64,000 bases of DNA from Chloroflexota bacterium (lineage in GTDB: Bacteria > Chloroflexota > Anaerolineae > Aggregatilineales > J027). This document shows, piece by piece, positions 11,499 to 16,465 of the stretch. Each line of letters begins with the position of its first letter. The stretch's first letter is position 1. Both the position numbers and the translations under genes were made by a program. Below the pieces are notes generated by a model, which was not told where the DNA came from, ran no database searches, and saw only the letters and a program-made list of their open reading frames with translations. Location: assembly GCA_024434115.1 (NCBI GenBank), contig QMIT01000001.1:372001-436000 (forward strand), read 5' to 3'.

Positions 11499-11531
11499 GA
11501 GGGGTATCCGCAGGGATGCCCCTCATTTTTT
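11499..11531 (+). terminator. Rho-independent terminator of glnA
   Basis: GAGGGGTATCC (11499-11509) pairs with GGATGCCCCTC (11514-11524) through 11 bp (one G-U) with a GCAG loop, followed by ATTTTTT. It isolates glnA from the following tRNA gene. Confidence 0.9.
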
Positions 11532-11581: not shown

Positions 11582-11653
11582 GGGTCATATGCTCGTTGGA
11601 TGGGCGGCGGACTCTAAACCCGCTAGAAGCGAGTTCGATTCTCGCATGACCCA
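11582..11653 (+). tRNA. tRNA with anticodon CUA (UAG-reading, putative amber suppressor)
   Basis: The cloverleaf can be drawn completely. The acceptor is GGGTCAT/ATGACCC (7 perfect bp) with discriminator A11653. The D stem is GCTC/GGGC with G18-G19 in the loop. The anticodon stem is GCGGA/CCCGC (A31-C39 mismatch) with loop CTCTAAA. A 5-nt variable loop, T stem GCGAG/CTCGC and T loop TTCGATT follow. Anticodon CTA is at 11614-11616, with canonical U33 and A37. CCA is not encoded. The core is odd: A at position 8, G14 and U15 replace the near-universal U8, A14 and R15. The acceptor (GGGTC, A73) and loop resemble tRNA-Lys(CUU) with U36 changed to A. It is not tRNA-Pyl, since the variable loop, T loop and D loop are standard. 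Charging identity is unknown. Confidence 0.75.
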
Positions 11654-11666
11654 TTGTGGAGGAAAT

Positions 11667-11729
11667 ATGTTGTAGGTTTACTATTCCAAAACGAGAGACC
11701 CCCCAAACTGTATCTCCCTCTCTACCTGA
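11667..11729 (+). CDS. Leader ORF with in-frame UAG at codon 3
   Basis: GGAGGA (11658-11663) precedes ATG 11667. Codon 2 is TTG and codon 3 is TAG (11673-11675). If UAG is read, translation continues in frame to TGA at 11727-11729, a 20-residue peptide. Without readthrough it is a two-codon minigene (Met-Leu-stop). The Shine-Dalgarno begins only five bases after the tRNA 3' end, so tRNA processing would release an mRNA starting right at this leader. The readthrough part spans the left arm of the hairpin at 11708-11762. This fits a regulatory leader whose full translation requires the CUA tRNA. Function is inferred from arrangement only. Confidence 0.55.
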
Positions 11730-11762
11730 ACTGATGTTTATGCAAATCAAGAGGAGATACAG
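11708..11762 (+). promoter_or_regulatory. Hairpin sequestering the ribosome binding site of the 140-aa gene
   Basis: CTGTATCTCC (11708-11717) pairs perfectly with GGAGATACAG (11753-11762), and TCT/AGA adds 3 bp after a bulged C. The right arm contains the Shine-Dalgarno (GAGGAG, 11751-11756) of the gene starting at 11765. The left arm lies inside the leader ORF, 33 nt beyond its UAG. A ribosome stopping at the UAG would leave the stem intact; one reading through to 11729 would open it. Confidence 0.6.
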
Positions 11763-11764
11763 AC

Positions 11765-12187
11765 ATGAATACCCTTCCAAAAGCGATCACCGCTCAAATA
11801 ACAGTTGACCTTTCTACCTACCAGAGTATCCGCAGCCACTGGAGTGATTTGATGCGCTCCACACGCAGGCAAGAATTACGGGCTTCGCATCATCTGCTTT
11901 ACCTAGCGCTGTTAGGTAAGGATTGGCGCAAGGCTTTTCGCTGTCTTTCTAATTCAAACAAACTCAATAATGGCGCGTTTCCGGGATGGGGACTTTTTTG
12001 CGCCACAGCCGTACTGCATATGGTAGCGTGTGAGGAGGAAGTGCTGGCTCCATTTGATGGCCTTGTTACGCCAGCCATGCTTCAGCAGGTTCGGCAATTG
12101 ATCCCGGTTCCGAATGCCTACAAACTCAAACCGGAACAATTTGTGGCAGGGGAGTTTCCCTTTGAGGCGTATGTTGTGCCCGCTTGA
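11765..12187 (+). CDS. Unrecognised 140-aa protein of the CUA-tRNA cassette
   Basis: A compact soluble protein without signal peptide, membrane segment or cysteine metal site. Recognisable stretches are a basic SHWSDLMRSTRRQ segment near residues 24-36, SHHLLYLALLGKDWRKAF at 41-58, a GAFPGWGLF turn, and an acidic C-terminal half ending in FEAYVVPA. I cannot assign a family. It starts at ATG 11765 with GAGGAG 9-14 nt upstream, and that site is buried in the leader hairpin. The PTH2-like gene follows after 38 bp and is probably in the same transcript, which suggests a role connected with the CUA tRNA. Confidence 0.75.
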   Translation: MNTLPKAITAQITVDLSTYQSIRSHWSDLMRSTRRQELRASHHLLYLALLGKDWRKAFRCLSNSNKLNNGAFPGWGLFCATAVLHMVACEEEVLAPFDGLVTPAMLQQVRQLIPVPNAYKLKPEQFVAGEFPFEAYVVPA

Positions 12188-12225
12188 GTCAAGGCCTAAG
12201 TCTAATTAGCCGACAGGAGGAAACG

Positions 12226-12633
12226 ATGCCAGAATCCTAGACGGTTGCACAGGTATATGCCTATGTTCTTGTCCGAACCGACATTGCCCTTGAACAGCAA
12301 ATTGTGCAGGTCGGACATGCGTGTTTGGAAGCAGGACGTAGATTTGACTGGCCGGATACCCCCTGTAATCTTGTTGTCCTCGGTGTTGCCAACAGTGGTG
12401 AATTACAGGCCACGATTGAACGGGTGCAACTGGCTGAAGTGCGTATCGCGCTGTTTTATGAACCAGACCATCAGCTTGGGCTAACGGCTGCCTGTACAGA
12501 ACCCATCTCCGGCGCATTTAGGCGACTCTTTCGGCGCTTTCCTCTTTGGAATGTGGATGGGGCAACCTCAGCACGCGGGCCACCACACCGCGTTTTCCTG
12601 AAGTCGCGGGTTAATGAACGTATGTTCTATTGA
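12226..12633 (+). CDS. Peptidyl-tRNA hydrolase 2-like protein with in-frame UAG at codon 5
   Basis: A strong ribosome site (AGGAGG, 12215-12220) precedes ATG 12226. Codons run ATG CCA GAA TCC TAG, then stay open to TGA at 12631-12633 (135 residues counting UAG). The part after UAG follows the PTH2 fold: VYAYVLVRTD strand, QQIVQVGHACLEAG helix (PTH2 family: KGKxAAQVAHA), NLVVLGV strand, a helix, RIALFYEPD and GLTAACTEPI, ending RRFPLW. PTH2 enzymes release tRNA from stalled peptidyl-tRNA. No ATG, GTG or TTG lies in frame between the UAG and GTG 12304, and starting at 12304 would remove the first strand and RTD motif. Intact protein therefore needs UAG readthrough, which the tRNA 585 bp upstream could provide. 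The alternative is a recent nonsense mutation. Confidence 0.7.
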
Positions 12634-15145: not shown

Positions 15146-16465
15146 CTAGCTGATGGCCGCATTAATTGGGTCGAGGAGCTTGGTTTCCATTTCTTTTGGC
15201 AAAGGAGTTCTACTATCCAGTCGTTTCATGATTTCAACAAGAAGTTCAGTCTTGGTTTTAACAATTCCATTTAGTTCAATACGATCCTCGCGGATTGAGA
15301 TTTGATCTAGTTGATTTGGGGTGCATGAGAACAATTCAGCCATTATTGATACGGGATAGACATATTCAATACCATTTCGATCCCACCTAATAATATTTTC
15401 GCTCTCGATACCCATATTTTCTAGTTCCGCAACTAAACCCGGTTGATGAACTTGGTCAAGCACTACAAATAGGCGATTTCTATAAGGGCTTTTTGACAAA
15501 TCTCCAAAGGCTTCGCGGAGACCAGCTACTTTGCGCTTTACATCCCCACTCGATGATATAACAGTCAATCTTCTTCCTAGAAAACGCAATTGAAGCAAGC
15601 GATCAATGTAAGCAAGGTCGGTTTTTCCCTCGACAATTACTATAGCGGCGGGAAAATACATCATTTCTAGGGAATTGCCTAATAGATTGAATTGGAGACG
15701 ATGGAAATCGTTTATTGAGGCGGTTTGGGCAAGATCAACGGTTTCTTTATCTTTGGAAACAATATAGTTGCTCTGGATATCTTGCCTGTTGAGGAAAATA
15801 TGAGAATGAGTAGCGAGGAAAACCTGATGCAGGTGCGGAAAGTAACGATCACGATTTTCTGGGCCTTGTAAAAATTCTGCAAATGCCTGCTGAACTTTTG
15901 GACTTAGGCCAAGCTCTGGCTCATCAATAAGAATTTTACTGAAACGCTCATCCATACAAATCCCAAGCATTGTCATAAGCAAACGAGTGCCTGTACTACC
16001 AACGGAGATATTTTGACCATCCATATCTATATAGCTGACACTCAAGTCGTTATCTGGATCGACTCGCTTTAGGGTAAACATGTTGCCAAGCAGGTCTCCG
16101 CAAAGCTGCAATAAAGTGTCACGCTTTGAATTACTTAGACCCACAATTACTCTGTGCAAATCGAAAAAATTGTTTTCAAAATTATATTGCTCTTTCCCAA
16201 ACTGACTATTGAACTGAGTTTCAAAACTATCAATTTCATTTGGATCCCGAAGGCCTGAGCTAAAATGGTAGACATGATAAAATCTGTTTACCCCTATCAA
16301 ATATGATGTGCGGCCAAATTTTTGTTTAAGTGATTTCAGGAGTAGGGACTTTCCAGAGTTGTTTGGCCCTGCGAGAACAACCAGAGGCTTATTCTTCGTG
16401 TCCGAAAGAAATACGGGTATTTGGGGATGAAATTTTAGGTCATGGCTGTAGTAATTAAACATCAT
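15146..16465 (-). CDS. OLD-like AAA ATPase with degenerate TOPRIM-like region
   Basis: ABC-type ATPase features: Walker A GPNNSGKS at 33-40, ILIDEPELGLSP (Walker B) at 178-189 and an H-loop VFLATHSHIF near 215-224. The C-terminal third has IVIVEGKTDLAYIDRLL (276-291), the first acidic motif of TOPRIM nucleases, and VVLDQVH (334-340), where the usual DxD is reduced to a single Asp. OLD-family nucleases act in phage defence, for example P2 Old or Gabija GajA; without a clear DxD, nuclease activity is uncertain. Base composition is visibly more AT-rich than its neighbours and it stands alone, so horizontal transfer is likely. The flanks (15013-15145, 16466-16714) are AT-rich and otherwise featureless. 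Confidence 0.75.
   Translation of the reverse strand: MMFNYYSHDLKFHPQIPVFLSDTKNKPLVVLAGPNNSGKSLLLKSLKQKFGRTSYLIGVNRFYHVYHFSSGLRDPNEIDSFETQFNSQFGKEQYNFENNFFDLHRVIVGLSNSKRDTLLQLCGDLLGNMFTLKRVDPDNDLSVSYIDMDGQNISVGSTGTRLLMTMLGICMDERFSKILIDEPELGLSPKVQQAFAEFLQGPENRDRYFPHLHQVFLATHSHIFLNRQDIQSNYIVSKDKETVDLAQTASINDFHRLQFNLLGNSLEMMYFPAAIVIVEGKTDLAYIDRLLQLRFLGRRLTVISSSGDVKRKVAGLREAFGDLSKSPYRNRLFVVLDQVHQPGLVAELENMGIESENIIRWDRNGIEYVYPVSIMAELFSCTPNQLDQISIREDRIELNGIVKTKTELLVEIMKRLDSRTPLPKEMETKLLDPINAAIS

Follow-up and report, generated by a model that had tools for sequence, protein, structure and literature searches.

Why would a gene with a strong ribosome site and a well-preserved fold carry a stop codon at its fifth position? 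The question is raised by a peptidyl-tRNA hydrolase-like (PTH2-like) gene in a 64,000-nucleotide stretch of a Chloroflexota genome, hereafter the window, in which the ATG at 12226 is followed by the codons P-E-S, a UAG, 130 open codons, and a TGA at 12631–12633. The layout described in the initial annotation, from the AGGAGG ribosome site through the four codons and the UAG to the long frame behind it, was recovered exactly, and so was its statement that no alternative start precedes the core: the first ATG, GTG, or TTG after the UAG is a GTG at 12304, already inside the first core helix. This form (Shine-Dalgarno sequence, ATG, at most 12 codons, UAG, and then a run of 100 or more open codons, the whole not lying within another gene) occurs at the PTH2-like gene alone in the 382 kb tested, which comprise the window and 318.5 kb of contig C14 of the same genome. 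From comparative sequence analysis, we propose that the gene is part of a naturally occurring translational switch in which a dedicated amber-suppressor tRNA gates the operon twice (Table 1), a reading to which we assign a probability of roughly 0.8.

Table 1. Features of the cassette and its surroundings, in window coordinates
Feature	Position	Strand	Basis
Terminator-like hairpin 3' of glnA	11499..11524	+	Consensus scan only
tRNA, anticodon CUA, candidate amber suppressor; CCA not encoded	11582..11653	+	ARAGORN; Rfam tRNA 42 bits; fold z −3.2
Shine-Dalgarno-like GGAGG of leader micro-ORF	11658..11662	+	Sequence
Leader micro-ORF, M-L-UAG-VYYSKT-RDPP-NCISLST-stop	11667..11729	+	ATG-Leu-TAG in same place in 9/9 cassettes
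In-frame UAG, leader codon 3	11673..11675	+	Invariant; preceding Leu codon varies (TTG, CTA, CTG)
RxPP arrest-type motif, leader codons 10–13	11694..11705	+	Fixed spacing in 8/8 and in the ninth
Anti-Shine-Dalgarno arm, TGTATCTCC	11707..11717	+	Pairs with 11753–11763
Shine-Dalgarno arm of orfX, GGAGATACAGA	11753..11763	+	Pairs with 11707–11717
orfX, 140 aa, helical, family unassigned; no internal UAG	11765..12187	+	Conserved in 9/9 cassettes
Shine-Dalgarno AGGAGG of PTH2-like gene	12215..12220	+	Sequence
PTH2-fold gene, ATG to TGA, UAG at codon 5	12226..12633	+	Sequence, predicted structure
In-frame UAG, codon 5 of PTH2-like gene	12238..12240	+	TAG in 34/34 tabulated homologues, fused homologues, and G782
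RGPP motif near PTH2-like C-terminus	12574..12585	+	8/9 cassettes, synonymous variation; L009 without RGPP

The Chloroflexota cassette

The intact PTH2-like fold claimed for the translated frame is borne out by its AlphaFold2 model (18-row alignment, pLDDT 85), which matches Pth2 of A. fulgidus with a Z score of 14.9 and an rmsd of 2.0 over 103 residues and has a best Foldseek E value of 3.6e-6. The Pfam PF01981 score of the window protein is 15.2 bits, below the cut-off of 23 bits; a fused homologue from phage XacN1 passes at 25.3 bits. The residue at the UAG lies outside the folded core. Relaxed selection behind the UAG was looked for among the Chloroflexota homologues, and dN/dS instead ranged from 0.17 to 0.47 (6 of 10 pairs with unsaturated dS). 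A sense codon in place of the UAG was sought in the same homologues and found in none, the UAG being present in all nine loci. Together, this purifying selection and the shared UAG support the earlier view that the frame is functional and not a decayed pseudogene. That view did not take in the tRNA-CUA, the second UAG in the leader, the anti-Shine-Dalgarno hairpin, or the phage relatives, which are described below.

In all nine Chloroflexota loci the tRNA-CUA gene, the leader micro-ORF, orfX, and the UAG-interrupted PTH2-fold gene follow one another in this order, including a ninth locus (G782) that was looked at once the pattern had been fixed and that repeated every feature. The homologue records are titled Chloroflexi and Anaerolineae, and their PTH2-like genes open with MPE[S/Q/H]-UAG, MVSER-UAG, MPHQ-UAG, MIKG-UAG, MVKG-UAG, or MTKG-UAG. 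Within the class, the family occurs in 6 of 396 genomes and the tRNA pattern in the same 6, and one member of the genus (G001) has neither. In a phylum sample of 400 genomes the window's own genome was the sole match, and a search of plasmids gave no match. The cassette adjoins glnA in the window's genus and other genes elsewhere; the terminator-like hairpin behind glnA suggests that it forms a separate transcription unit, and a promoter scan found none. An AAA_21 ATPase, putatively AbiEii/OLD-like, is encoded nearby at 15146–16465.

The tRNA-CUA gene lies about 600 bases upstream of the PTH2-like gene. Across eight cassette copies, six of them distinct, 98.3% of the cloverleaf cells are paired and four pairs show compensatory change, against at most 49% of cells in slid controls. 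Among the other tRNAs of the genome tRNA-Tyr comes nearest, with the resemblance concentrated in the anticodon arm, which gives a weak hint on charging. The core of the Chloroflexota tRNA-CUA is also unusual, and its anticodon loop is closed by a mismatch; we count both against the proposed switch.

The leader has the consensus Met-Leu-UAG-x6-Arg-[Asp/Ser/Ala]-Pro-Pro, with six variable codons after the UAG. Its motif reads RDPP in the window and RSPP or RAPP in relatives, and the Arg and Pro codons differ synonymously between cassettes. In 8/8 sequences the last base of the second Pro codon is at +39, with the anti-Shine-Dalgarno arm beginning no more than 1 or 2 bases further on. The partner of this arm, TGTATCTCC, is GGAGATACA ahead of orfX; over eight sequences 85 of 88 cells are paired, with compensatory changes in three pairs, whereas no more than 47 of 72 cells pair in slid controls. 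The window hairpin has a fold z of −3.94 relative to dinucleotide shuffles; three members of the genus have A-A as the outermost pair, which counts against the proposal. A mechanism for RxPP stalling is described in PMC10951233, and PMC12992588 reports strong ribosome arrest for RAPP and RGPP, the latter being the strongest of these motifs, and partly permissive behavior for RDPP and RSPP. The RDPP of the window leader, partly permissive in the other contexts covered there (PMC12992588), counts against the arrest step.

The product of orfX, with dN/dS of 0.10 to 0.19 in unsaturated pairs, gave a weak structural model (pLDDT 66). At the other end of the operon, the RGPP tail of the PTH2-like protein is kept in 8/9 cassettes while adjacent residues drift; it is a possible second stall site, with no obvious gene downstream.

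Homologues in jumbo phages and their tRNAs

Searches with tblastn and pattern scans extended the family to jumbo phages and IMG/VR contigs; 31 phage records matched, 16 of which were fetched. The final tabulation holds 34 homologues, 8 from Chloroflexota and 26 phage or viral. Dropped before counting were L006 (a weak match inside a 390-aa frame), L101 (a fragment), L089 and L103 (contigs of L012 and L013), and L001–L005 where the window and L007–L010 hold the same loci; the near-duplicates BF/SNUABM19, L093/L094, and L096/L097 were kept. The upstream in-frame stop is TAG in 34/34, never UAA or UGA, and occupies codon 3 to 13, with an ATG start 2 to 12 codons ahead of it in every case. XacN1, RAS14, and CM1, in which an HD-like and a PTH2-like domain are fused, were considered as exceptions to this rule and rejected as such, since the fusions have their UAG at codon 3; the frame of XacN1 ORF364 reaches back through it. 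LR756501 has an additional stop within its frame and may be a recoded phage. The locus L021, used as a query against viral contigs, gave no match.

In CBB, GAP32, BF, XbC2, Kaldavass, and SNUABM19 the HD-like protein is encoded by a gene of its own, which overlaps the PTH2-like gene at its end and whose conserved frame contains a UAG at codon 47. The corresponding codon is a sense codon in ME3 and Arash, and L012 has a UAG at codon 3 of its HD-like gene. The HD domain profile scores are 16.0 and 16.9 bits (cut-off 22), and the His-Asp pair plus further His/Asp columns are invariant in the alignment. Among five related jumbo phages, pN/pS of the HD-like gene is 0.130 before the UAG and 0.126 behind it. 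For the PTH2-like gene of the same phages the value is 0.089 from the UAG to the start that is annotated in CBB and GAP32 and 0.147 for the rest, so that the stretch omitted by annotation is under strong constraint. A scan of viral contigs found no relative of orfX, and a profile comparison of orfX with the phage HD-like family, made with a thin profile, showed no relation.

Counted over the UAG-bearing phage loci, overlapping ones included, a Shine-Dalgarno site, ATG, and early stop followed by at least 70 open codons occurs 31 times when the stop is TAG, 8 times when it is TAA, and 4 times when it is TGA. In phages, none of the micro-ORFs with a UAG was followed by an RxPP leader (0 TAG cases), so that the arrest part of the proposal is supported for Chloroflexota only. 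A further family, with the pattern KEAAExYxWxHQQ and a UAG at codon 3, lies just before tRNA-CUA genes at L014:6972-7454 and L090:6790-7251; it has no convincing match in Pfam.

The tRNA-CUA was present in 36/36 UAG-bearing genomes or contigs checked: 9 from Chloroflexota, 10 phage records (ME3, Arash, and LR756501 within the fetched locus; CBB, GAP32, BF, XbC2, LR756511, and RAS14; and Kaldavass), 16 IMG/VR contigs, and XacN1, whose tRNA-CUA was taken from its paper (PMC5852040). SNUABM19, CM1, and K64-1 were left out of this count. RaK2 and Hallingskeid, which lack the UAG, have other tRNAs and no tRNA-CUA, and no tRNA was found across the 75-kb contig of L011, a UAG-less homologue. An overall P value is withheld because the related genomes are not independent. 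The phage tRNA-CUA bodies vary among themselves and do not resemble the Chloroflexota one, and the viral contigs held no exact match to the cassette's tRNA pattern; the property that all share is thus the anticodon.

Several smaller observations concern these loci. L011:4625-5330 combines its PTH2-like gene with a weak orfX relative and is possibly an ancestral or reverted state. RAS14 (L080) has a second stop-decoding tRNA beside tRNA-CUA, with anticodon UUA (c17428-17502). Up to three tRNA-CUA genes with different bodies occur per phage locus (L014, L092), which suggests a choice of inserted amino acids. In the phage contigs L012 and L014, the UAG-interrupted gene is preceded, at a distance of about 1 kb, by a predicted permuted tmRNA.

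A proposed suppressor-gated operon and competing explanations

In the proposed switch the cassette tRNA-CUA, for which the conserved cloverleaf speaks, would be charged and would decode UAG. By default RF1 would end translation at codon 3 of the leader, the RNA would fold, and the ribosome site of orfX would be hidden within the hairpin. When tRNA-CUA outcompetes RF1, the ribosome would be expected, from published work on RxPP and the fixed geometry of the motif, to stall at Arg-x-Pro-Pro, cover the anti-Shine-Dalgarno arm, and free orfX. The same tRNA would read codon 5 of the PTH2-like gene, whose protein would be made solely when UAG is sense, as its conservation and selection suggest. The output of the operon would then report how RF1 and charged tRNA-CUA compete at UAG, and jumbo phages could work in the same way, although their tRNA bodies differ and the partner gene is HD-like. 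More generally, we think it fairly likely that the suppressor tRNA is a natural trans-acting translational activator, and that small UAG regulons, made up of PTH2-like genes, HD-like genes, and arrest leaders, are maintained in both jumbo phages and Chloroflexota. Our guess is that either weak UAG termination or tRNA charging is what the switch senses, and that the cassette proteins act on tRNA or ribosomes; as the likeliest use, although at less than even odds, we put forward that a tRNA- or ribosome-directed factor is made when UAG termination fails. Counted against the switch is that UAG suppression could disturb about one quarter of the genes, those that end in UAG (74 among the 289 genes predicted across the 382 kb).

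The alternative that survives best, although we hold it to be rather unlikely, is that the PTH2-like protein strips the amino acid or peptide from tRNA-CUA, making suppression self-limiting and keeping UAG readthrough low. It departs from the switch in purpose, the gating being identical, and both the tRNA substrate to which a PTH2 fold points and the strict linkage of tRNA and protein speak for it. In Pth2 the catalytic lysine is in a GK motif. The GKK of 24bt aligns on aQQ of the PTH2-like protein in one weak alignment, and Q19 is invariant in the family alignment (A4); a glutamine appears to stand where Pth2 has its catalytic lysine, which would argue against a hydrolytic role of this kind. 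The gating of orfX or of the phage HD-like gene would also be left without explanation.

Re-initiation, with the UAG closing a short upstream ORF, translation restarting in frame behind it at a non-AUG codon, and the tRNA being unrelated, accords with the good Shine-Dalgarno sites that precede the short ORFs of the homologues. However, in 31 of the 34 the stretch from the UAG to the core offers no other ATG, GTG, or TTG, the stop is invariably UAG even though UAA or UGA would be equally suitable, tRNA-CUA is always present alongside, and the UAG of the phage HD-like gene sits at codon 47 within a conserved frame, all of which makes this reading highly improbable.

Reassignment of UAG throughout the genome, to pyrrolysine or another residue, has an equally slim chance. 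ARAGORN labels the tRNA Pyl on account of the anticodon alone, but PylS is absent (20.8 bits, where the cut-off is 178), and the pyrrolysine system was rejected on this score. General recoding of the code 15 type was rejected as well: RF1 is present, UAG serves as the stop of the 74 genes mentioned above, and TAG readthrough in general raises coding density no more than TAA and TGA controls do, with scatter among short loci. A novel residue at these few UAG sites is possible. Finally, a recent pseudogene or a sequencing error, for which the stop itself and nothing further speaks, is refuted by the identical UAG in 9/9 Chloroflexota assemblies and in diverse phages and by the purifying selection behind it.

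Relation to known systems

The preferred reading, an operon gated by suppression of UAG, shares elements with several known systems. Leaders such as those of ApdA, ApdP, SecM, and CruR also place Arg-x-Pro-Pro in an upstream ORF, where a stalled ribosome opens a hairpin over the next ribosome site. Here, in contrast, the motif would be reached only through readthrough of the UAG at codon 3, the leader has about 13 residues up to the stall with no export signal visible by eye, and a putative UAG-reading tRNA is encoded directly upstream. In prfB, the gene for RF2, an early in-frame stop ties expression to a contest at the stop codon. The cassette, as proposed, resembles this programmed frameshift in both respects, but has UAG and a candidate suppressor tRNA where prfB has UGA and a +1 shift, and its product is PTH2-like and not a release factor. 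Code 15 phages likewise encode tRNA-CUA and have UAG inside genes, whereas here one or two genes have a UAG near the start and UAG is a stop elsewhere in the tested loci. The pyrrolysine system also combines a CUA-anticodon tRNA with an in-frame UAG; it differs in PylS, which is absent here, and the UAG residue here lies outside the folded core. Pth2 itself shares the fold, but the gene described here is UAG-interrupted, the position of the catalytic lysine is apparently changed, and the window protein falls below the Pfam cut-off. The closest parallel in layout is an engineered amber switch (Liu et al. 2011, as cited in PMC6412442), in which a UAG in a leader ties downstream expression to a suppressor tRNA; that switch is synthetic and transcriptional, while the cassette is natural and, judged by its sequence, translational.

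Within the open-access literature searched, including the accessible parts of PMC6102473 and PMC10987492, we found neither a PTH2-like gene interrupted by UAG nor a natural operon gated by a suppressor tRNA described. PTH2 in jumbo phages is noted in the available part of PMC7824862, with no mention there of UAG; the terms amber and suppressor are both absent from the XbC2 paper (PMC11273794), and the XacN1 paper states that its authors could find no target for the suppressor tRNA (PMC5852040). The suppressor tRNAs of jumbo phages have so far been without a known target, and a conserved candidate is now seen, in XacN1 ORF364 among others. The layout of a UAG-gated arrest leader, as proposed for Chloroflexota, is otherwise only engineered in the literature searched. 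The system offers a direct test of what a natural suppressor tRNA does, and, if the switch operates as proposed, UAG would be a conditional, regulatory codon, on when termination loses to a dedicated tRNA, and not a fixed stop.

Gene callers cut or miss genes of this kind. No feature is annotated in BF and SNUABM19, and the starts called in GAP32 and CBB are late. The 77-aa family phrog_34073 begins about 32 residues into the true frame, behind the first strand, so that the database holds shortened versions.
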